Source: Acidobacteriota bacterium (GTDB lineage Bacteria > Acidobacteriota > Vicinamibacteria > Vicinamibacterales > UBA8438). From it: 44,662 nt of DNA. The notes beneath the pieces are model-generated. The model was given only the letters and a program-made list of their open reading frames with translations, made no database searches and had not been told where the DNA came from. The first letter of the stretch is position 1. Each line of letters starts with the position of its first letter. This document shows, in pieces, positions 3,124 to 42,760 of the stretch. The translations under genes were made by a program, and so were the position numbers. The stretch spans positions 55,243-99,904 of the forward strand of contig PBRZ01000059.1 in the NCBI GenBank assembly GCA_002726085.1. Reading direction: 5' to 3'.

Positions 3124-3168
3124 AACGACGTCCTCACGGCCCCTTTGAGAGCGAACAACCAGAAGCCG

Positions 3169-3217
3169 GCGAAGCCGTCCAGCTTCTCCTGCTTTCTGTC
3201 TCCTGACTTCTATGAGC
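3169..3217 (-). repeat. Heptamer-array hairpin repeat, copy A
   Basis: Read on the minus strand: CTCAT, then three 7-base units (AGAAGTC, AGGAGAC, AGAAAGC), then AGGAGAAGC, six bases, and GCTTCGCC. GAAGC (3171-3175) and GCTTC (3182-3186) form the hairpin arms. The outer end CTATGAGC (3210-3217, plus strand) is identical to that of copy B. It lies between the PQQ dehydrogenase and the regulatory/heme gene. Confidence 0.75.
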
Positions 3218-3258: not shown

Positions 3259-5364
3259 CTACTTGGCCAACGGGTCCGGCCGCATCTGGAACTTGACGGC
3301 CTTGGGCAGCACCCCGGGGCCACCCTCGCCTCGCCCGCCCTCGATGTGCCAGGTGGCATACGTCGAGAAGCTCGCCCAGTACCCCTTGCCCTTCCAGCCG
3401 GCGTCGGGGTCGTCGATGCGGCCATTCCCGGAGCGAGGAAAGAAGCCCATCGGATACGGCACGCGCAACGTCACGTAGCGGCCGAGGCTCGGCGAGAAAA
3501 CCTCCATCGCGTCGGTGTTTACCGACCCGTAGATCGGAGCGTCGGCCCCGAGGCCCAAGGTGTCATGGAAGTCCATGTGCGCCAGATAGCTCTCGTTGGC
3601 GTGGAAAAAGCTATTCCCGTATGTCGGGTCGTTCTTGCGCCGGAACGACCACCCCTCGGGGCAGCTCTGCCCCGTGGCCCGTGGGTCGCTCGTCGTGTCG
3701 CATAACGTCCGGTCGAAGCTGGAAAAGTGACCGCTGACCCGCCAGTTCTGCCAGGCGACGCCGTCGTCATCGATCTCGACACCGCCCGACCCGATCACAT
3801 CGGGATCCAGGCCGGGTGGCGGCTCGTAGTATTCGGCGCTGCAGGTCTCGGGCGGGTTGGACCCCTTCTCGATCCGGACGAGTCGCCGGTCTCCGCGGCC
3901 GATCCCGGAGCACCACAGCGCGCCGTCGGCAGGGCTGACGGCAACCGAGTAGCAGCCGAAACTGATGCGGTGGTCAAGCGCCGAGGCTACCGGCGCGTCT
4001 GGCTCGGTCCACTCGGTGATCCGACCGTCACCATTGGTGTCGATGACGGCTGGGCACCACCCCTGCGACGCCTCGGCATCGTGCGTCTCGTCCCAGGTGT
4101 CCATGTCGATCCACCCAACGGCCCCGTTCTGCCCGAAGTGCAGGACGTTGTCCTCGCTCATCTGGTTGTGGTCGGCGCTGAAGCAGGTGTCGATTTGCTC
4201 GAAGACGCCGGTCGCCGGGTCATAGACAGACACCTGCCGGCTCGCCCGCTCCAGCGGGTAATTGGCGCCGAACGGATTCTCGTCCGACGTGCAAAAAGCT
4301 GGCTGCTGCGCGGCGTCGCGCACACGTGACGCCATCCACACCCGGCCTCTGGCGTCGACGGCGGAACTGCGCACGTCAGCCCGCCGTGCCCAGACGTCGT
4401 CGCCATAGTGCGGCGAGCGTGTCGGGGACGCGTTGAAGCCCCCCACGAACGGGGAAGCCTCCGACGGCACCGTCACCACCGAGGCCCGATGGGTGACCGG
4501 GTCCAGGATGGTCAGCGAGTCGGTCATCTCGGCCACTCCGTAGACCGGACCGTTGGCGTTCACCGTACCGTCCCGGATGTCGGCGGCGGCCATGTCGGTG
4601 CGACCATCGATCTCGGATCCCCAATCCCAGAGGGTGATGACCAAATTGCGCTCGGCGCCGGCCGGACGGGGAGGCGGGTCCCTCGGCGCCTCGCCGGCGG
4701 CCACCCGGTCGGTCCAGTCGGCCAGCGCCTGTCGCATCTCGCCGAGGGCCCTGAACTGACCGGCCATCCCTGGCCCCGAGGGTCCGACCCCGGTACGACG
4801 GATCCAGGCGTCGAGCGACGAAGCCGAAGGACCCCGCATCGCCGGCAGCATCTCGCGTGTCGCCTTGTTGCCGACCTGGTGGCAGTCGTAGCACTGCTTC
4901 ATGGTCAGGGCGAAGTCGAGCTGCGCCTCCGGCTCGGCCGGCGGCGTGATCATGTTCAGCCACCATGCCGCGGGGTACACCTGCGCCGCGGCTCGCGCGT
5001 CTGGAGCGAGCGTGGCGTCGAAGCTGACCCGCTGACCTGGTCGGGCCGACTGACGGGGCGAGTCGACCAGACCGTATCCCCGCACGAACAGATCGTAGGT
5101 GGCGTTCGGCAGGTCGGGCACGACATATTGGCCCCGGTCATCGGTCACCACGATCCGCGTGAACCCGGTCGGCAGATCAGTAGTCTCGGCTATCACCCAG
5201 ACACCCGCCTCGGGTCCGTTCGCGCTGGTAACGACACCGCCGATGTCATCCGAGTCAATCGTCACCTCGCCACCCTGGCCGCTCACCCGGACGAGCGAAC
5301 AAGCCAGCACCACCGCTATCGCCAGAGACCCGATCCGACTCCGTGCATGTGCCGTCATCAGCAT
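3259..5364 (-). CDS. Carboxypeptidase-regulatory-like / one-heme / beta-propeller secreted protein
   Basis: 701 residues. The start at 5364 has AGGAG six bases upstream; a Sec signal follows. Residues about 35-125 are a carboxypeptidase-regulatory-like beta sandwich (IGGVVTSANGPEAGVWVIAE, VTDDRGQYVVPDLPNATYDL). A single heme c motif, CYDCH, lies at 158-162, followed by a long region resembling streptogramin-lyase/Vgb propellers. DTNGDGRITEW resembles a calcium loop but does not fit the EF-hand spacing exactly. A close paralog starts at 42934. The heme and its place between a PQQ dehydrogenase and DUF1552/DUF1592 genes suggest periplasmic electron transfer or oxidation of a bound substrate; the reaction is unknown. 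Repeat copy A separates it from the dehydrogenase gene. Confidence 0.78.
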   Translation of the reverse strand: MLMTAHARSRIGSLAIAVVLACSLVRVSGQGGEVTIDSDDIGGVVTSANGPEAGVWVIAETTDLPTGFTRIVVTDDRGQYVVPDLPNATYDLFVRGYGLVDSPRQSARPGQRVSFDATLAPDARAAAQVYPAAWWLNMITPPAEPEAQLDFALTMKQCYDCHQVGNKATREMLPAMRGPSASSLDAWIRRTGVGPSGPGMAGQFRALGEMRQALADWTDRVAAGEAPRDPPPRPAGAERNLVITLWDWGSEIDGRTDMAAADIRDGTVNANGPVYGVAEMTDSLTILDPVTHRASVVTVPSEASPFVGGFNASPTRSPHYGDDVWARRADVRSSAVDARGRVWMASRVRDAAQQPAFCTSDENPFGANYPLERASRQVSVYDPATGVFEQIDTCFSADHNQMSEDNVLHFGQNGAVGWIDMDTWDETHDAEASQGWCPAVIDTNGDGRITEWTEPDAPVASALDHRISFGCYSVAVSPADGALWCSGIGRGDRRLVRIEKGSNPPETCSAEYYEPPPGLDPDVIGSGGVEIDDDGVAWQNWRVSGHFSSFDRTLCDTTSDPRATGQSCPEGWSFRRKNDPTYGNSFFHANESYLAHMDFHDTLGLGADAPIYGSVNTDAMEVFSPSLGRYVTLRVPYPMGFFPRSGNGRIDDPDAGWKGKGYWASFSTYATWHIEGGRGEGGPGVLPKAVKFQMRPDPLAK

Positions 5365-5425: not shown

Positions 5426-5944
5426 CTACCGAAGCGCAACCGATCTGAGTCGGTACTCGCCGGAGCCCGGCTCCTGCTCGCGGTAGATCTCGTGACACGC
5501 CGCACACGCGTCGCCGATCTCGCTCGTCAGGGTGCCGACTGTCGTAGGGTCGACCGCCTCGACCGACAGCGCCGCGTCGAGCGCGTCCATCCGATTCAAC
5601 GCCGTGCCGAGCAGCGCCAGTGCGTCGCGCCGTCCGTTGTCGCGCCAGAAGGTCACGGTAGTCGCCAGCTGCTCACGCGACCGGATGGCGCGCTCCTTGG
5701 CGGTCGCGAAATCGCCACCGGCCAGCGATGCCCTGATGCCTGCCACGTTCGGACCCAGCGTCTTCATCGTGGCGTCGAGGTGGTCCGCGGTGAAGATTGG
5801 GTAGGGCTTGTCCTGGGCGATCACCGGGCCCGCCGTGAAGAGGAGCAGGCACAAGGAGACAGGAGGCAGGAGGCCGGAGGCGGAAGGCGAAGCCCACCAG
5901 CTTCTCCTGACTCCTGTCTCCTGTCTCCTGCCTCCTATGAGCAT
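5426..5944 (-). CDS. Cytochrome c'-like small heme protein with repeat-derived signal peptide
   Basis: 172 residues from ATG 5944. The mature part begins near QDKPYP and is helical, with one heme c motif close to the C-terminus (CAACH, residues 147-151), the layout of cytochrome c' and related four-helix heme proteins. Family members bind heme and sometimes NO or transfer electrons. The first 35 or so codons lie inside repeat copy B: the basic n-region (GGRRQETGVRR) and most of the hydrophobic core (LLPPVSLCLLL) are read from the heptamer arrays. Either the gene acquired this signal peptide from the repeat or the true start lies further in. An AGGGG lies just upstream of 5944. It starts six bases after the DUF1552 stop. 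Confidence 0.75.
   Translation of the reverse strand: MLIGGRRQETGVRRSWWASPSASGLLPPVSLCLLLFTAGPVIAQDKPYPIFTADHLDATMKTLGPNVAGIRASLAGGDFATAKERAIRSREQLATTVTFWRDNGRRDALALLGTALNRMDALDAALSVEAVDPTTVGTLTSEIGDACAACHEIYREQEPGSGEYRLRSVALR
5854..5942. repeat. Heptamer-array hairpin repeat, copy B (complete, two inverted arrays)
   Basis: The fullest copy. The left array (AGGAGAC, AGGAGGC, AGGAGGC, CGGAGGC; about 5854-5881) is followed by GGCGAAGC, CCACCA and GCTTCTCCT (hairpin arms 5889-5893 and 5900-5904), then a right array in the opposite orientation with four units, ending CTATGAGC (5935-5942). The two arrays are mutually complementary, so a long stem is possible. It overlaps the start of the cytochrome c'-like gene. 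Confidence 0.8.
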
Positions 5945-5950
5945 TCGCCC

Positions 5951-7300
5951 CTACACCCCCGTCAGTCGCTCGAGCTTCCCCGTACTGTCGCCCAACGTCT
6001 CGACCGGCACCCCAAGCTTCTCGAGAATCGTGACGTGCAGATTGGCGAGCGGTGTGTCCTGCGGATACCGGATGTACCGCCCCCCCGAGATGCCGGCGTT
6101 CTTCCCGGCGACCAGGGCGATCGGCAAATCGTCATGGAAGTGCGTGTTGCTGTCACTGATGCCGGTCCCATAGAGAAACAGCGAGGAGTCGAGCATCGAC
6201 CCATCGCCCTCGGGCAACGCGTCGAGCTTATCCACCAGATACGCAAATTGCTGCACATGGAATTCATTGATCTGGTGCAACCGCTCGAGCTTGGCCGGCT
6301 CGTCCTGGTGATGCGACAACGGGTGATGGGAGTCGGACACCCCGATCTCCGGATACGCTCGCCCACTCACCTCACGTGCCAGCATGAACGTGCTGATCCG
6401 GGTCAGGTCGGTCTGGTAGGCCAACGCCAGCAGATCCATTTGCAGCCTGGCGTGCTCGGCATAATCGTTCGGCACCCCGACCGGCTGGTCGACGACCGGC
6501 AGCTCGCGGGTGTTCTGCTCCTCGGCCATCGCGATCCGCCGCTCGATGTCGCGCACCGACTCGACATACTCGTCGAGCTTCAACCGGTCGCCCGGCCCGA
6601 TCACCTGCCCGAGCCCGCGCAGCTCGTCGCCCACCAGATCCAGGATGCTGCGGTCTCGCTCGATGCGCGCCAGCCGCGCCGCCGGATCAGTGCTGCCGCT
6701 GGTGCCGAACAGCCGTTCGAACACGGCCCGGGGGTCGTTCTCGATCGGGAGCGGGGTCGTCGGCGTGCGCCAGGCGATCGTGTTGGTGTAGGCGCAGCTC
6801 GCCCCGCCATCGCAGTTGCCCACCATGGCATTCGACTCGATTCCCAACTCGAGGGAGGCAAGCTGAGTCTCTTTTGACAGCTCGCGCGCAGCAAGCTGGT
6901 CCATCGACACCGCGGCCGACACGTCGGCCCCGGTCGTGACCTTGTAGGGCACGCAGGTAAGGAACGTGCCGGCCGACCGCGAGTGGTCGCCGCCGCCCTT
7001 CACGAGGTTTGCCGCCTCGTCATCGAGCCCGCCGCATATCAGCACTCGTTCCTTGAATGGCTCCAGCGACCGTAGCGTCGGTGGCATCTGGGCAAGCGAG
7101 CCCTCGGTCTTCGGGTACCAGTAGGGCATCGACATGCCGTTGGGCACGTAGAACACCCCGAACCGCCTGACCGGCGCGGCCGCCGACCGGCTTTGCGCCG
7201 TCAGCGCCGGCACCATGCCGTCGAGCAGCGGCAGGGCGAGCGTGGCCCCGAGCCCCCGGAGCACGGTGCGACGCGGAAGGTGGGTCTTGGTGATGAACAT
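5951..7300 (-). CDS. DUF1552 Tat-exported protein (left pair)
   Basis: 449 residues, start ATG 7300. The N-terminus is a Tat signal (PRRTVLRGLGATLALPLL), implying export in a folded, probably cofactor- or metal-bound state. The rest matches DUF1552: FGVFYVPNGMSMPYW, LLALAYQTDLTRISTFM, the His-rich SDSHHPLSHHQDEPAK and YGTGISDSNTHFHDDLP segments, and LANLHVTILEKLGVP near the end. The family is related to DUF1501/sulfatase-like folds and has no established reaction. Such genes typically sit beside DUF1592 cytochrome proteins, as here; the partner starts at 9828. The 116-bp gap to the partner contains repeat copy C, whereas the right-hand pair overlaps by four bases. Confidence 0.9.
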   Translation of the reverse strand: MFITKTHLPRRTVLRGLGATLALPLLDGMVPALTAQSRSAAAPVRRFGVFYVPNGMSMPYWYPKTEGSLAQMPPTLRSLEPFKERVLICGGLDDEAANLVKGGGDHSRSAGTFLTCVPYKVTTGADVSAAVSMDQLAARELSKETQLASLELGIESNAMVGNCDGGASCAYTNTIAWRTPTTPLPIENDPRAVFERLFGTSGSTDPAARLARIERDRSILDLVGDELRGLGQVIGPGDRLKLDEYVESVRDIERRIAMAEEQNTRELPVVDQPVGVPNDYAEHARLQMDLLALAYQTDLTRISTFMLAREVSGRAYPEIGVSDSHHPLSHHQDEPAKLERLHQINEFHVQQFAYLVDKLDALPEGDGSMLDSSLFLYGTGISDSNTHFHDDLPIALVAGKNAGISGGRYIRYPQDTPLANLHVTILEKLGVPVETLGDSTGKLERLTGV

Positions 7301-7312
7301 TGGAGAATCCCC

Positions 7313-7364
7313 AAGGAGTCAGAAGTCAGGAGTCAGAAGTCAGAAGAAGCGGGAGGGCTTCGCC
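7313..7364 (+). repeat. Heptamer-array hairpin repeat, copy C
   Basis: Four clean 7-base units (AGGAGTC, AGAAGTC, AGGAGTC, AGAAGTC), then AGAAGAAGC, GGGAGG and GCTTCGCC; hairpin arms 7346-7350 and 7357-7361. It has one array only and occupies much of the gap between the DUF1592 and DUF1552 genes. Confidence 0.75.
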
Positions 7365-7416
7365 ACCATGATGCTGTACCCCGCCCTTCTCCCTCACAGG
7401 CAAGCCAACCAACGTG

Positions 7417-9828
7417 CTATCGCCGGGCAACGGGTACGCCATCCGCGTCCGGGGCGCGGCGCATCTGAAACGAATCGCTTTCGACGATGCCGAGCACGAG
7501 CGACGTCCATCGGTAATCGTTCCGCGCGAGGTCTCCGACGATCCGCCGAACCGCCGGCGCATCGAAGAAGTCCACGCCCCGCCCGAGCGCGTAGGTCATC
7601 AGCTTCTCAGTGACGGTCCGAACCACCTCGTCACCCGAGTTGAGCAACATCTCACGAAACGCGCGCGGGCTCTCGATGGTCTCCCCTCGCCAGGCGATCG
7701 CGGCGTTGATCGGAACACCGCCGTCGCTCTCGCGCCACCGCCCGATCGCGTCGAAATGCTCGAGTGCGAACCCCAGGGGATCCATCTGGGTGTGACAGGC
7801 GGCGCACACCGGGCTGGCGCGATGCTGTTCCATCCGCTCGCGCAGCGACGTCGGCTGCCGCCGGTCGCTTTCGGCCAGCGGCGGCACGTTCGGCGGCGGG
7901 GGCGGGGGCGGTGCTCCGAGCAGCGTTTCGAGCACCCACTTACCGCGCAGCACGACCGAGGTCCGGTTGGCATACGAGGTCACCGTCAGCAGACTGGCGT
8001 GGCCCAGCAGGCCGTGCCGGCGGTCGTCAGTCCAGTCGTGGCGGCGGAAGTGACTGCCGTAGAGATCATCGATGCCGTAGTGACGCGCGAGCTGTTCGTT
8101 CAGGAACGTGTAGTCGGCCCCGAGGAGCTCTGGAATCGGCCGGTCCTCCTGGACCTGGCTCCGGAAGAACAGCTCGGTCTCCTGTACCATCGCCGTCCGC
8201 AGCGAATCGTTGAACCCGGCGAACAGCGCGCCGTCCGGGGCCTGCGAATCGATGTTCCGCATCTGGAGCCACTGGCCGACGAAGTCGTCCATGAATCGCG
8301 TGGCCCGCCGGTCGGCGAGCATCCGGCGCACCTGCGCGGCCAGCGTGGCCGTCTCGCTCAGCTCGTCGCGCTCGGCGAAAGCGAGGAGCTCGTCGTCCGG
8401 GATACTCTTCCAGAGAAAGAATGAGAGCCGTGTGGCCAACTCGAGGTCACTGAGCTGATACACGCCCCCCGGCTGCGTGTCGACCGGATGCTCCTCGACC
8501 CGCATCAGGAACCCGGGCATCGCCAGCAGTGCCTCGAGCGCCCGCTCGATGCCGGCCTCGAAGTCGCGGTCCCGCCGCCCCAGACGGTAGATGCCGAGCA
8601 GCGGCTCGACGTCGGCGGCGGTGACCGGCCGGCGGTAGGCACGCCTGGCCAGCGCCCCGATGATCGCGCGCGCGCAGGGCTCTTCCTGGTCGGGCGTGGT
8701 CGGCCGGCACACGAAGATGCGCTGCCTGCTTGGGGTGTCGTCGCCCGGCACCGTGCCGTCGAACGGCCCCGACACGTAGACCTTGTCGATGCCGGGCAAC
8801 CCGCTCGCCGCATGCGGCGACGGCGCCGAGTTGGTGAACGCGACCGACACCAGCCGGGTGCCCGCCTCGATTGGCACGCGGATTTCGAGCTTGCGGTCGG
8901 CGGTCATCCGGTACTCATGGAGCCGCTGCCCCTCGATGTCATCTTCGGGCACCGCGATGAGCTGCCCAGGATCGGGTCCTGAATACTGCCCCCCTATCGC
9001 GAACTGCTCGACGAGCGCGTGGTCGACGCGCAGCTCGATTTGATGCTCGTTCTCGGCGATGCCGTCGATCGTCTCGACCGTCTCGTTTCGCTTGAGCCGG
9101 ATGGCAAAGACGTAGTCGCCGTCCAGCGGGAAGTGATGCCGCACAGCGAGCCCGCCATGGGTCGCGAATGGCATCTCCTCGCCGGCGCGCAGATCACGTC
9201 GCTCGTAGCCCAGCTGGTAGAGCTGCATCACCGGGCGGGTGTCCGGGCTGCCAACGGCGGCTCGGCTGATCTTGGTCGCCGCGGCGATGTAGCGAGACAT
9301 GAGCCCCGGAGTGATCGAGAGCACCTCGGCGTTGTTGTCGAACCCGAAGCCGGCCATGTCGGACGGCAACAGCTCCTCGCCGTTCACCTCGAGTCCCAGC
9401 AGGTCCTCGATGGCATGTACATATTCAGCCCGGTTCAGCCGACGCGAGGCGACCCGACCGGGGTTCGGCCGCGCAATCGCTTCCCGATCGAGCGCCGACT
9501 CGAGGGCGGTGAGGAAGATGTCGACGGCGGTCTGATCGGGCCGTGGCCGACCCTGAGGCGGCATCTGCCCCTTGCGCAGCTTGCGGACGACCCGCTCGAG
9601 CACGTCGGCGTGGGCCGACACGTCGGCAAGATTCACCTGGTCGAGCCTGAGCCCGGCGGTCTGGAGACGCTCGTTGTGGCAGGTGACGCAGTAGCGGTCG
9701 AGCAGCGCTCGGGATGGAGCTTCGCCGGCGGATTGGGCAGCCGTCGCCCGAAGCTGGAATCCTCCCCCGGGCCCGGCGAGAGTGATTCCGGCCACGAAAA
9801 CCGCGACGAACGTGCTCCGGGTGGGCAT
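7417..9828 (-). CDS. DUF1592-type multidomain cytochrome protein (left pair)
   Basis: 803 residues with a signal peptide. Domain order matches the planctomycete PSCyt/PSD proteins: an N-terminal cytochrome-like heme motif CVTCH (residues 47-51) followed by MPPQGRPRPD; a DUF1587-like segment (LNRAEYVHAIEDLLGL); a middle beta-rich region; DUF1595 (ARRAYRRPVTAADVEPLL); DUF1592 (LATRLSFFLWKSIPDDELL); DUF1588 with a second heme motif CAACH before MDPLGFALEHFD; and DUF1585 at the end (LMTYALGRGVDFFDAP, SDSFQMRR). The PPPPPPP run before the second heme is typical. By family knowledge it is a diheme envelope protein working with DUF1552; substrate unknown. The 234-bp upstream gap contains a hairpin and a possible reading-frame tail of the next gene. 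Confidence 0.92.
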   Translation of the reverse strand: MPTRSTFVAVFVAGITLAGPGGGFQLRATAAQSAGEAPSRALLDRYCVTCHNERLQTAGLRLDQVNLADVSAHADVLERVVRKLRKGQMPPQGRPRPDQTAVDIFLTALESALDREAIARPNPGRVASRRLNRAEYVHAIEDLLGLEVNGEELLPSDMAGFGFDNNAEVLSITPGLMSRYIAAATKISRAAVGSPDTRPVMQLYQLGYERRDLRAGEEMPFATHGGLAVRHHFPLDGDYVFAIRLKRNETVETIDGIAENEHQIELRVDHALVEQFAIGGQYSGPDPGQLIAVPEDDIEGQRLHEYRMTADRKLEIRVPIEAGTRLVSVAFTNSAPSPHAASGLPGIDKVYVSGPFDGTVPGDDTPSRQRIFVCRPTTPDQEEPCARAIIGALARRAYRRPVTAADVEPLLGIYRLGRRDRDFEAGIERALEALLAMPGFLMRVEEHPVDTQPGGVYQLSDLELATRLSFFLWKSIPDDELLAFAERDELSETATLAAQVRRMLADRRATRFMDDFVGQWLQMRNIDSQAPDGALFAGFNDSLRTAMVQETELFFRSQVQEDRPIPELLGADYTFLNEQLARHYGIDDLYGSHFRRHDWTDDRRHGLLGHASLLTVTSYANRTSVVLRGKWVLETLLGAPPPPPPPNVPPLAESDRRQPTSLRERMEQHRASPVCAACHTQMDPLGFALEHFDAIGRWRESDGGVPINAAIAWRGETIESPRAFREMLLNSGDEVVRTVTEKLMTYALGRGVDFFDAPAVRRIVGDLARNDYRWTSLVLGIVESDSFQMRRAPDADGVPVARR

Positions 9829-17360: not shown

Positions 17361-18227
17361 GTGGGTATTCTCGAAACAGCGATCGACCCGTGGGGACGCA
17401 CGGTGCTCACCCACGTCGCCTGGAACATCCTCTGGGTGTCGTTCTTCGTGTTCGTCACATTTCTGGTGGCGCACGCCTCCTACATCATCCTGTCGGCACA
17501 CCGGGTCCGTCCCCAGGCGGAAACCGACGTCCTCGAGGCGAAACATGACGACCTGCCAACGCGCATCAAGCGACACTCCTTCATGGCACGGCTGTTTCAC
17601 TGGATCATGGCTGGCTCGATCTTCACGCTGCTCGGCACGGCGTTCTTCCCAATCATGGGCTGGCAGTTCGACTGGATCGGAATCCACTACACCGCCGGGC
17701 TCGTTCTGACCGGTTCGATCATCTATCACATCCTGCACACTACGTTCTTTCTCGACTTCTGGTCGATCTGGGTCGGACCGAAGGACATTCCAGAGTTCAA
17801 GGCCGAAATCATGCGGGAGCGGGGTCAGGAGGTTCCGGGCCTGCATTCGGCCAAATACCCAATCGGCAACCGGCTGTATCACCTGGTGCTGACTTTTGTC
17901 GGGTGCACCGTCAGCCTGACCGGCGTCACGATGCTGTGGCGGATGGGGACCCCTTTCATCACGCCCAACCCATACCTCCTCGGCGAAGGCACCTGGGGCT
18001 GGGTGTATGTGCTGCACGGCATGACGGGTCTGTCGCTCGCCGGCCTGAGCGTGGCCCACATCATTTTCGGCGCGCGTCCGAAGAACTGGTGGCTGACCCG
18101 GTCGATGATCTTCGGCTGGGTCACCCGGCGCGAGTATCTCGAGCATCACGAACCAGCCCGGTGGCCGATCGGGGTCCGGGTGCCCAAGGAGACAGGAGTC
18201 AGGAGACAGGAGACGGGCGAAGCTTGA
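17361..18227 (+). CDS. Membrane cytochrome b (formate dehydrogenase gamma / b561-like)
   Basis: 288 residues from GTG 17361, with GGGGGA eight bases upstream. Hydrophobic segments lie near residues 18-42, 76-96, 108-128, 170-192 and 212-235, with histidines positioned for b-hemes: RHSFMARLFHW, GIHYTAG, YHILHTTFF, NRLYHL and VLHGMTGLSLAGLSVAHIIFG. This resembles the quinone-linked cytochrome b subunits of formate dehydrogenase and related complexes. Such subunits normally pair with a catalytic and an FeS subunit; none is adjacent, so it may serve one of the exported oxidoreductases here. The last codons (PKETGVRRQETGEA) and the stop are read from repeat copy D. Confidence 0.85.
   Translation: MGILETAIDPWGRTVLTHVAWNILWVSFFVFVTFLVAHASYIILSAHRVRPQAETDVLEAKHDDLPTRIKRHSFMARLFHWIMAGSIFTLLGTAFFPIMGWQFDWIGIHYTAGLVLTGSIIYHILHTTFFLDFWSIWVGPKDIPEFKAEIMRERGQEVPGLHSAKYPIGNRLYHLVLTFVGCTVSLTGVTMLWRMGTPFITPNPYLLGEGTWGWVYVLHGMTGLSLAGLSVAHIIFGARPKNWWLTRSMIFGWVTRREYLEHHEPARWPIGVRVPKETGVRRQETGEA
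18186..18226 (+). repeat. Heptamer-array hairpin repeat, copy D (left half)
   Basis: Units AGGAGAC, AGGAGTC, AGGAGAC, AGGAGAC, then GGGCGAAGC and TTGA, the same order as the left half of copy B. It lacks the second arm. It supplies the C-terminal codons and the TGA stop of the cytochrome b gene. Confidence 0.7.
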
Positions 18228-18272
18228 GGGCCGCGCCAACTCCCATTGAAGACACGGCGCTAGTGTAGTGCG

Positions 18273-39026: not shown

Positions 39027-40388
39027 TTAGACGTTGGCCAGGGTGCCGGTGCTCAGCAACCCGCTGGCATCGCCCAGCTCCTCGGCACGCACCCCCGCCT
39101 TGTCGAGCACGCTGAGCAGCAGATTCGCCATCGGCGTGTCTTCCGGGTAGGCGAGATGACGGCCACCCTGGAGCCGGCCACCGCCGCCGCCGGCCACCAG
39201 ACATGGCAGGTTGGTGTGTTCGTGCAGGTTCCCGTTCCCGATGCCGCCGCCATAGACAATCATGGAGTGGTCGAGCAGATTGCCGTCGCCGTCCGGCGTG
39301 GCGCGGAGCGTCTCGAGGAAGTGCCCGAGTAGCGAGATGTGATAGGTATCGATTTTCGCCTTCCGCGCGATGTAGTCCGGATCGTTCCGGTGGTGCGACA
39401 CGGTGTGGTGCTGGTCGGGCACGCCGATCTGCGGGAAGGAACGGGGACTGGTCTCGCGCGCCATCATCAGCGTGCCGACCCGAGTGACATCGGCCTGATA
39501 GGCGAGCGCCAGCAGGTCGAACATCAGCGTGGCGTATTCTTCGAAATCGTCCGGGATGTCAATGGGCCGCTCGGGCAGGTCGATCTCCGCCTCGTCGCCT
39601 CGGGCTTCGGCGCGTCCGATTCGCAGCTCGAGATCGCGGACCGACTCGAGATACTCGCTCAGCTTGTTCCGGTCGCCCGGTCCGAGTGTCCGCTCGAGGC
39701 TCAACGCTTCCTCGGTCACCGAATCGAGAATGCTGCCGGAGTGCCGCGCCTGCGCCCGCCGGTCGGCCGAGCTACCGCCGTCGCCGAACAGCCGCTCGAA
39801 GACCACCCGGGGATGCGGTTCCATCTCGAGCGGCGTCGTCGGGTCGCGCCACGAAATCGTGTTCGAGTAGAAACAATCGCCCGAGTCACACGAGATCGCG
39901 GTCGGGCGCTCGAGCACCAGCTCGAGCGAGGGCAGCGGCGTGGCCTTCCCCAGCTCGCGCGCGGCGATCTGGTCGGCGGTCGTGCCCAGCTTGATGGCGG
40001 TCGGGCCGATGCGCCCGCGCCGCTCCCAGGCATGGACACCGCTCAGCCAGACGGCGGTCGCCCGCGGATGGTCGCCGTTGCCATCGCCGAACGAGTCGGC
40101 CTGCCGGTGCGCGAGACCGCTCAGCACCAGCAACTGATCACGATATGGCGCGAGCGGACTCAGCGTGGGCGAGAGATCGAACCCCGCACCGGTCGTCGCC
40201 GGGACCCACTGCTCCTGGATGACTCCGTTCGGGATGTAGACGAAACCGAGCCGGGTCGCCGGGCTGGCGGCGGTTTGCGCCAGTGCGGTCGCAGCCGGAA
40301 CCATGGCGTCGAGTAGCGGAAGGGCCACGGTGGCGCCCAGCCCGCGCAGGAAGGTCCGCCGCGGCAACGCCAGCTTGGCAATGATCAT
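39027..40388 (-). CDS. DUF1552 Tat-exported protein (right pair)
   Basis: 453 residues, start ATG 40388. The Tat signal is PRRTFLRGLGATVALPLL. It is parallel to the protein at 5951 through its length: LGFVYIPNGVIQEQW, LDLLALAYQADVTRVGTLM-like LLALAYQADVTRVGTLM, VPDQHHTVSHHRNDPDY, YGGGIGNGNLHEHTNLP and LANLLLSVLDKAGV. The upstream DUF1592 stop overlaps this start by four bases (ATGA), so translation is probably coupled. Unlike the left pair there is no repeat between the two genes. Reaction unknown; assumed to work with the diheme partner in the periplasm. Confidence 0.9.
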   Translation of the reverse strand: MIIAKLALPRRTFLRGLGATVALPLLDAMVPAATALAQTAASPATRLGFVYIPNGVIQEQWVPATTGAGFDLSPTLSPLAPYRDQLLVLSGLAHRQADSFGDGNGDHPRATAVWLSGVHAWERRGRIGPTAIKLGTTADQIAARELGKATPLPSLELVLERPTAISCDSGDCFYSNTISWRDPTTPLEMEPHPRVVFERLFGDGGSSADRRAQARHSGSILDSVTEEALSLERTLGPGDRNKLSEYLESVRDLELRIGRAEARGDEAEIDLPERPIDIPDDFEEYATLMFDLLALAYQADVTRVGTLMMARETSPRSFPQIGVPDQHHTVSHHRNDPDYIARKAKIDTYHISLLGHFLETLRATPDGDGNLLDHSMIVYGGGIGNGNLHEHTNLPCLVAGGGGGRLQGGRHLAYPEDTPMANLLLSVLDKAGVRAEELGDASGLLSTGTLANV

Positions 40389-42760
40389 GATTCGCTCTTT
40401 CTCATCTGGAACGGAGTGCTGTTGACGATGCCAGTGACGATTGTCGAGAAGCGATAGTCGTCGCGCGCCGCTTCGCGCACGATCGCGCGCACCGTCGGCG
40501 CGTCGAACGCCTCGACTCCACGCCCGAGCGCGTAAGTCAGCAGCTTGTCGGTGATGGTGATCACGAACTGGTCGGGCGACCGCAGCAGGGCGGCGCGGAG
40601 TCCGGCGGGCCCTTCGAACTGTTCACCGTTGGGCAACTGGCCGGTCGCGTCGATCGGCAGGTTCGTCTCGCCCAGGCTCCGCCAGCGCCCGACGGCGTCG
40701 AAGTTCTCGAGCGCGAACCCGAGCGGGTCCATCTTCGAGTGGCAGCTCGCACAGACCGGGTTCGCCCGGTGCTGCTCCATTGCCTCGCGCATCGATCGCG
40801 GCACGCCGTCTCCAGTGGTCGCCTCGAGCGCCGGCACGTTGGGCGGCGGAGGCGGGGGCGGCGACGACAGCAGATTCTCGAGAATCCACTTGCCGCGGAG
40901 CACCGGCGACGTGCGGGTGCCATACGACGTCAGCGTCAGGATGCTCCCCTGTCCCAGGAGGCCGCGTCGCGCCTCGTCCTCCAGCTCGACACGGCGGAAG
41001 TGGCTGCCGTAGACATTCGGAATGCCGTAGTGCTTCGCCAGCCGCTCGTTCACGAACGTGTGACTGGCCGTCAGCAGATCGAGCACGCTCCGGTCGTCGC
41101 GCAGGATGCTGTCGATGAACAGCTCGGTCTCGCGGCGGAACGCTTGTCGCAGGTTCTCGTCGAAGTCGGGGAAGAATCCGGTATCCGGTTCCTTCAGCTC
41201 GATGTCCCGGAGATACAGCCACTGCTCGGCAAAGTTGGTGACGAGCGCCTCTGACCGCGGGTCGGCCAGCATGCGCTGCACCTGCTGGTCGAGCACGCCC
41301 GGCGCGCCGAGCTCGCCCCGACTCGCCAGGTCGAGCAGCTCGTCGTCCGGGATGCTGGCCCAAAGAAAGAACGACAGGCGAGAGGCGAGCTCGAGATCGG
41401 TCACGCGATAAACGTCGCCGGCGGCGACACCCGCCGGGTCACGTTCGACGCGGAACAGGAACTCCGGGCTCACAAGCACACGCTCGATGGCGCGCTGGAC
41501 GCCCCGTTCGAACCCGCCCTCGGCTCGGCCCTGCTCGTAGAACGGCAGCAGCCGCTCGAGGTCCTGTCCGGTGACCGGGCGTCGATAGGCGCGCCGTGCG
41601 GTCGTCGACAGAATCTCTCGCGCGCACGCTTGCTCGTCACCCACCGCGGCGCCGGTGCCTGGACGGCAGCTGAAGATGTGTCGGCGGCTTGGCGTGTCGC
41701 CCGCGCCGTCCGCGCCATAGGGCCCACTGACAATCAGGCTGGCGATGGACGGCTGCCGGCTGCGAGACCTGGCCGACCGCACGAGGCCTCCCGAAACCGC
41801 GCCGCTCTTGGGCAGAAACGCCACGGCCACCTCACGCGGACCGGCCCTGAGCGACACACGCACCTGCACGTCGGGGTCGGCATCGAAGGTAAAGACGCCG
41901 CTGGCCGGCCGCTCCGGCGGGTTCTCGCCAATGGTGAACAGCCCCACCCGCTCGCCGTCGACGCTGACTTCGACCTCATGGGGCTCACGCGCGGCGCCCG
42001 GGAACACAACCGTGATGAGGTACTCGCCGTCGAGCGGCAGGTGGCTCCGCACCCGGGTGCCGCCGCGGGTGCCGAGCGGGAGCCCTTCAACATGCCGGTC
42101 CTGGACCAGATCGCGGTCGATCCGGTAGGTGTCGACGATCGGCAACATCGTCGGGTCGCCGACGGCAAGACGACTGATTCTGCGCGCCGCCCCGAGATAT
42201 CGCTCCATCAGCGTGGGCGAGACAAACAGCAGGTCAGCCAGATTGTCGAATCCGCTGGTGGCATTATCGGCCGGCAGCATCACCTCGATGTCGAGCTCTT
42301 TGGGCAGGTCGTCGAGGGCCAGCAGATCGCGCACCGCGTTCTGGTACTCGGTCCGACTCAGCCGGTGCAGCGCCGGACGGCGGCCCGGGTTGGGGTCGGC
42401 GGCGGCCGCGCTGTCGAGCGCGGTTTCGAACCAGGACGCGACCGCGTCGTTGGTGGCATCGTCGGGACGGGGACGACCTGTGGGCGGCATGACGCGCAGC
42501 CGCAACTTGCGGACCACCGCCTCCCAAGTCTCGGCGTCGGCGCTGACGTCCGACAGGTCCAGGCCATCGAGCGCGAGCTCGGCGGTCTGAAGCCGCTCGT
42601 TGTGGCAGGTGACGCAGTATTGGTCGAGCACGGCGCTGACCGTGTCCGGAGTGGCGGCCGTGGCGCCGATTGGCGCCTGTGCCGGCGCAGCCGCAGGGGC
42701 GCCGGCAGTGACCACGCCGAACAGCGCGAGCGACACGCAGAGCACCCACTTTTCACGCAT
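40385..42760 (-). CDS. DUF1592-type multidomain cytochrome protein (right pair)
   Basis: 791 residues, start ATG 42760, with a Sec signal. Same domain order as the protein at 7417: heme motif CVTCH near residue 50 with MPPTGRPRPDD following, LSRTEYQNAVRDLLAL (DUF1587-like), a middle beta region, ARRAYRRPVTGQDLERLL (DUF1595), LASRLSFFLWASIPDDELL (DUF1592), a Pro run before the second heme CASCH with MDPLGFALENFD (DUF1588), and LLTYALGRGVEAFDAP (DUF1585). Two heme c sites are expected. It overlaps DUF1552 by four bases and is divergent from the second regulatory/heme gene at 42934, mirroring the gene set of the left module in a rearranged order. Confidence 0.92.
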   Translation of the reverse strand: MREKWVLCVSLALFGVVTAGAPAAAPAQAPIGATAATPDTVSAVLDQYCVTCHNERLQTAELALDGLDLSDVSADAETWEAVVRKLRLRVMPPTGRPRPDDATNDAVASWFETALDSAAAADPNPGRRPALHRLSRTEYQNAVRDLLALDDLPKELDIEVMLPADNATSGFDNLADLLFVSPTLMERYLGAARRISRLAVGDPTMLPIVDTYRIDRDLVQDRHVEGLPLGTRGGTRVRSHLPLDGEYLITVVFPGAAREPHEVEVSVDGERVGLFTIGENPPERPASGVFTFDADPDVQVRVSLRAGPREVAVAFLPKSGAVSGGLVRSARSRSRQPSIASLIVSGPYGADGAGDTPSRRHIFSCRPGTGAAVGDEQACAREILSTTARRAYRRPVTGQDLERLLPFYEQGRAEGGFERGVQRAIERVLVSPEFLFRVERDPAGVAAGDVYRVTDLELASRLSFFLWASIPDDELLDLASRGELGAPGVLDQQVQRMLADPRSEALVTNFAEQWLYLRDIELKEPDTGFFPDFDENLRQAFRRETELFIDSILRDDRSVLDLLTASHTFVNERLAKHYGIPNVYGSHFRRVELEDEARRGLLGQGSILTLTSYGTRTSPVLRGKWILENLLSSPPPPPPPNVPALEATTGDGVPRSMREAMEQHRANPVCASCHSKMDPLGFALENFDAVGRWRSLGETNLPIDATGQLPNGEQFEGPAGLRAALLRSPDQFVITITDKLLTYALGRGVEAFDAPTVRAIVREAARDDYRFSTIVTGIVNSTPFQMRKSES

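Follow-up and report, generated by a model that had tools for sequence, protein, structure and literature searches.

A dispersed heptamer repeat as the probable source of the n-region in the leader of an acidobacterial cytochrome c'-like protein

Introduction

Can a dispersed repeat become part of the export signal of a conserved protein? The question is raised by the start of a gene for a cytochrome c'-like protein in a 44,662-nucleotide stretch of acidobacterial DNA, which was analysed as a whole (hereafter the window). An earlier note had proposed that the n-region and most of the hydrophobic core of the leader are translated from a repeat copy, and that an intergenic repeat has thus been turned into an export signal. 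If so, the locus would offer a comparative example in which non-coding repeat DNA has become a functional part of a conserved protein. It would also be directly testable, since some related species have the repeat and others lack it. Copies of the repeat were surveyed in the window and in retrieved genome stretches (L047-L106; 72 copies), and orthologous leaders were compared within the genus and the family; all genomes compared are draft assemblies. We consider it fairly probable that the repeat landed on the cytochrome leader, replaced its n-region and is translated from ATG 5944 as part of a Sec signal.

Results

The locus and the encoded protein

The cytochrome gene is the third in a minus-strand set with the order PSD/PSCyt, DUF1552, cytochrome c'-like, CarboxypepD_reg:

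7417-9828, minus strand: PSD/PSCyt protein gene
5951-7300, minus strand: DUF1552 (HXXSHH) gene, upstream of the cytochrome gene, with the stop TAG at 5953-5951
5426-5944, minus strand: cytochrome c'-like protein gene, 172 aa, with a CAACH heme motif close to the C-terminus
3259-5364, minus strand: CarboxypepD_reg protein gene

The CxxCH motif in the C-terminal part is invariant (C105, C108, and H109 in alignment A1), and the best solved relatives of the protein's profile are cytochromes c' (E 0.007). As the score against Pfam PF01322 (class II cytochrome c') is 17.6 bits, below the cut-off of 26.5, only the label "cytochrome c'-like" is used here. In all three species of the genus for which the gene was found (G000, the genome of the window, G012, and G013), the heme domain is intact and shows purifying selection; for the mature part, the comparison of G000 with G012 gave dN 0.15 and dS 0.55. 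Rfam and tRNA scans of the window returned no matches. Positions 39617-42630 and 6532-9704 are direct repeats of each other (70-78% identity, same order), which suggests a second, paralogous DUF1552 and PSD/PSCyt gene pair in the window.

Anatomy and abundance of the repeat

The repeat unit consists of a left end (often GAATGCTCC), an array of AGGAGNC heptamers, a stem-loop (GAAGCCGGAGGGCTTCGCC) and a weak tail, GGCTTC. Inverted pairs of units are also found, with arms roughly 60-130 nt apart, and the copy at the cytochrome leader is a shortened inverted pair. Its parts, the adjoining native sequence and other copies in the window are:

5852-5944, minus strand: whole copy at the leader, including the left end with the ATG (5944-5937) and a link (5885-5874)
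5942-5944, minus strand: proposed start codon ATG, within the repeat left end (consensus near G-AATGCTCC)
5905-5936, minus strand: direct heptamer array AGGAGGC AGGAGAC AGGAGAC AGGAGTC AGGA, encoding GGRRQETGVRR
5886-5904, minus strand: stem-loop core GAAGCTGGTGGGCTTCGCC
5852-5873, minus strand: inverted heptamer arm CCTCCTGCCTCCTGTCTCCTTG, encoding LLPPVSL; its last TTG is 5854-5852
5816-5851, minus strand: native leader part CLLLFTAGPVIA, continuing into QDKPYPIF
3168-3211, minus strand: other copy, behind the gene at 3259-5364
7309-7364, plus strand: other copy, between the PSD/PSCyt and DUF1552 genes
18182-18237, plus strand: other copy, apparently encoding the C-terminal tail of the preceding gene

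The open reading frame, its start at 5944 and both peptide stretches were found as the earlier note had described them, and the repeat is far above chance. The pattern GAAGCNNNNNGGCTTCGCC, with at most one mismatch, has 140 matches in the genome (some places counted twice through palindromic overlap) versus 11 with the reversed-pattern control, and the heptamer-array pattern CAGGAGNCAGGAGNCAGGAG has 414 versus 0. BLAST, with 40 out of 217 candidates scored, gave at least 69 matches, which fall in at least about 39 distinct places. The copy number exceeds 100 in this genome. The repeat occurs at high density in all four genomes of the genus; elsewhere in the bacterial family it is rare or missing. 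G014 (74% complete) also contains the repeats, but a cytochrome ortholog was not found in it.

The left-end motif [A/G]TGCTC adjoins the array in 13 of 69 copies, versus 0-1 at control offsets; ATG 5944 is therefore probably part of the repeat. Belonging to the repeat consensus, its presence is by itself no sign of selection.

Nearly all other copies in the genome lie outside genes or touch C-termini only. When copies were considered as N-termini in the same genome, most candidate frames other than that at the cytochrome leader had a start codon behind the repeat. Some copies read as the C-terminal tail of the preceding gene, for example ...PKETGVRRQETGEA* (window 18182-18237; L058:3964, L068:2093, L090:2031, L097:921, and L101:2072), so that the repeat rewrites protein ends as well.

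Leader residues derived from the repeat

The repeat encodes MLIGGRRQETGVRRSWWASPSASGLLPPVSL, codons 1-31 of the gene, which comprise Met1, the Arg-rich n-region, and LLPPVSL. The proposal that the n-region (GGRRQETGVRR) comes from the repeat thus stands, while that for most of the core (LLPPVSLCLLL) has to be cut to about half, since the repeat ends at codon 31 (...LLPPVSL) and CLLL lies beyond it. The C-terminal half of the core and the cleavage site, predicted before Gln44 (QDKPYPIF), are native. The repeat most likely supplies the whole n-region together with the initiator Met, and to this extent it would indeed have been turned into an export signal.

Codon-usage scores are about -11 in the first 20-codon windows and about +10 to +12 from LCLLLFTAG onward; the change of sign (positive from codon 31) coincides with the border between repeat and native sequence. 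The leader was assessed by charge, hydropathy and length. Read from ATG 5944, it has a charge of +4/-1 and a mean hydropathy of 2.5 in a 10-residue window, versus 2.2-3.0 in repeat-free orthologs. A lipoprotein reading of PVSLC was rejected on inspection, as there is no lipobox-type residue at -1 and the Cys is missing there in G012.

Choice of the start codon

Near the leader, a single internal start is in frame, TTG 5854-5852, located where the repeat hairpin ends on its 3' side. Pairing with the anti-Shine-Dalgarno sequence is predicted at -9.9 kcal/mol for ATG 5944 and at +1.5 kcal/mol for TTG 5854. Initiation at the TTG would turn the repeat into an untranslated spacer and leave MCLLLFTAGPVIA as the leader, a reading that we regard as unlikely. 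It draws on the hairpin of the two arms, which ends just before the TTG and may perhaps bring it near the ribosome ending DUF1552, and on an in-frame TTG at the repeat/native border in G000, G012, and G013, even though the upstream frame is broken in G013. This conservation is, however, explained by the repeat, because the repeat end itself (CCAAGGAG on the other strand) contains the TTG. Besides having no Shine-Dalgarno pairing, the TTG is preceded by a pyrimidine-rich sequence that itself resembles the anti-Shine-Dalgarno sequence, and it would yield an uncharged leader of 13 residues (12 in G012 and G013), whereas Sec signals are usually longer than 12-13 residues.

The internal start, which the earlier note had left as an alternative, is thus the poorer candidate, and we infer that translation starts at ATG 5944. 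Against this choice speak the broken frame in G013, the codon usage of the repeat part, which is unlike that of the host, and the hairpin of the arms directly behind the ATG. The last is very stable (-84 kcal/mol for the region), and initiation or elongation should therefore be hampered.

Orthologs in the genus and the family

The repeat is present at the leader site in all three orthologs of the genus. A scan of genome contigs again returned only G012 (SZUA-1123) and G013 (B71T1B8) besides the genome of the window; both are assemblies named Acidobacteria bacterium. G012 has a GTG at the equivalent place, 6 nt from the DUF1552 stop as in G000, and in both genomes the repeat is stop-free and in frame with the conserved domain downstream. 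This does not hold for G013 from the upstream start: it carries a longer inverted pair with a spacer, and the upstream GTG is out of frame. Its frame could begin further on, 127-130 nt behind the stop, where a GTG/ATG without Shine-Dalgarno pairing overlaps a TGA.

The cytochrome gene directly follows the DUF1552 stop in all 21 family orthologs examined. In those free of an element, the start lies mostly within about 26 nt of this stop or overlaps it. In the other genera of the family, the heptamer repeat is absent at the site and the leaders are unrelated; outside the family, orthologs are few and distant. Thus, the comparison that the earlier note had called for turned up no ortholog with the same leader but without the repeat.

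The atypical codon usage, the long n-region and the broken upstream frame in G013 would also fit a signal peptide that the repeat has destroyed, with a protein poorly made or not exported and a gene in decay. We judge this to be quite improbable: both G000 and G012 have an open frame, and the purifying selection on the mature part, with the heme domain intact in all three species, makes decay of the gene unlikely.

Insertion behind stop codons

Heptamer arrays have a fixed orientation and mostly start 10-15 nt behind a stop. Of 69 heptamer-repeat copies, 38 begin 5-15 nt behind a stop codon on the same strand, versus 88 of 13800 random positions (0.6%); with some 10-14 nt taken up by the left end, there is practically no gap between stop and element. 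A similar habit is seen in a second family (that of genus g8; L012 and L163-L182), whose elements begin at the stop or one base inside it (TA|GGTTTTC, TGA|GGTTTTC); 15 of 21 sampled elements, counted by eye, had a coding-frame stop at -1 or 0. The pattern in both families suggests that stop codons are preferred as targets, or that structure behind them is selected for. It has been described that GTAG REP ends often provide the TAG stop of the flanking ORF (PMC3733652).

The arrays (window 5905-5936 and others) are strings of the Shine-Dalgarno-like AGGAG, 5-15 nt behind stops, and might hold or recycle 30S subunits.

Stable structures just behind stops have been described as ribosome termination structures (PMC7518266). 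The repeat may thus matter as such a structure, or as an mRNA-stabilising hairpin behind the DUF1552 stop, translation of the leader being a tolerated side effect. The fixed orientation of the copies just behind stops, shared by the g8 family, speaks for this role; on the other hand, termination structures are reported to be depleted where re-initiation is needed (PMC7518266), as at the DUF1552/cytochrome junction. While we find it rather doubtful, it is compatible with a repeat-derived leader, and both may hold; the confidences that we attach to the two are not exclusive.

Unrelated repeats at the same junction

In G018, G021, and G022, the g8 repeat, which is unrelated to the heptamer repeat and has the ends GGTTTTCTGACGAGGCGCC, begins exactly at the DUF1552 stop. 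Its end has 87 matches in G018 and 146 in G020. The element is open in frame from a start 21 nt behind the stop, which is GTG, GTG, and ATG in G018, G021, and G022, respectively. The charged residues PRQKT that immediately precede the h-region in G018 and G022 are encoded by the right end of the element; for G018, this attribution would fail if its alternative start, a TTG at +129, were used. G021 has a nearby ATG (MRSRKT) within the diverged right end of its element. Sequence change in g8 was rejected as proof of coding, as the element interiors of G021 and G022 are nearly identical and say nothing.

A third dispersed family (genus g9) is found in G023 (L026, reverse complement), where the palindrome GTCCGCCGGCCTCCAGGCCGGC, with 121 matches in that genome, lies between MARRRTR and the h-region as in-frame units of 30 nt; further on, behind the palindrome, a second ATG is also possible as start. 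A contrasting case (g10) is provided by G025 and G027 (L027 and L029): the cytochrome gene keeps its native start, and an insertion containing palindromic stretches separates this start from the DUF1552 stop. The candidate for a separate family at the junction in G020, GACACGAGGACACGAG, was discarded as it is present as a single copy only.

Overall, six of seven element-bearing orthologs (genera g1, g8, and g9) have a stop-proximal start that is open and in frame. With a chance of 1/3 each, at least six of seven would be expected with a probability of about 0.007 if the orthologs were independent, which they are only partly.

Discussion

The course of events that we favour would begin in the ancestor of the genus, where a repeat that settles behind stops would have inserted at the junction between the DUF1552 and cytochrome c' genes. 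It would have fallen on the start of the signal peptide because the cytochrome gene begins a few nucleotides behind the DUF1552 stop, and would have displaced the native n-region. A ribosome finishing DUF1552 at TAG 5953-5951 could then re-initiate at ATG 5944 and read on through the repeat, the direct array giving the Arg-rich n-region and the inverted arm giving LLPPVSL. Joined to the native CLLLFTAGPVIA, LLPPVSL would complete a Sec signal of about 43 residues, by which the cytochrome c'-like protein is predicted to be exported.

The composition of the repeat may explain why it can be read in this way. Because seven is no multiple of three, the array encodes one cyclic heptapeptide in every frame, RRQETGD in one direction and VSCLLSP in reverse, and is stop-free unless a unit reads TGA in reverse. 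An inverted pair resembles an n-region followed by an h-region, since the heptamer is charged on one arm and hydrophobic on the other in all frames. Of 54 frames in nine inverted pairs of the genome, 18 are open; as a rule, these lead from an Arg-rich stretch into one of the PPVSCLL type. Open frames being this common in inverted pairs, an open frame alone is weak evidence.

More broadly, and only tentatively, repeats that abut stops may be recurrent raw material for signal peptides. Inverted pairs would be able to take over the leaders of stop-adjacent genes for secreted proteins, because the heptamer reads alike in all frames and has a charged and a hydrophobic arm; within one bacterial family, unrelated repeat families would then have served to rebuild the same leader two or three times. 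The habit of inserting behind stops would thereby be tied to the kind of protein part that is formed, a leader.

Comparison with known systems

The repeat resembles REP, BIME, and REPIN elements (PMC3733652, PMC3116915) in its high copy number, stem-loop, inverted pairs, and position next to genes, but its unit is a heptamer array joined to a stem-loop. Neither a GTAG nor a CGTC tag was found at the foot of the stem-loop in the consensus or the aligned copies. A search for a cognate RAYT gave no linked gene; there are two Y1_Tnp genes in G000 and none in G012, and no heptamer arrays were found in the stretches around those of the genes that were examined.

As far as the cited accounts describe them, Rickettsia palindromic elements (PMC2759123, PMC3733652) are likewise short palindromic repeats kept in frame within protein genes, but they interrupt many different genes, whereas one leader is affected here. 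Dispersed arrays of 7-nt units are also known from Xanthomonas and Nostoc (PMC4692102), a family characterised in that account as G-quadruplex forming; the array described here differs in being joined to a stem-loop, occurring as inverted pairs, and lying behind stops.

The closest parallel is YPO1552 of Yersinia, in which RU-2, or Yersinia palindromic sequence, lies in a predicted signal peptide (Delihas 2007, PMC2759123; PMC2229807). In both cases, a dispersed non-autonomous, multi-copy repeat is in frame with a predicted exported protein at its N-terminal end and makes up part of the predicted signal, while homologs in other genera lack the repeat and have unrelated signals. The repeat family and the phylum are unrelated, however. 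Moreover, the host gene here is a conserved operon member whose orthologs within one family can be compared start by start, and in other genera its leader has been entered by unrelated repeats. YPO1552 already provides an example of this type of event; what is new is the repeat family, the comparative evidence on a conserved host gene, and the recurrence at a single leader.
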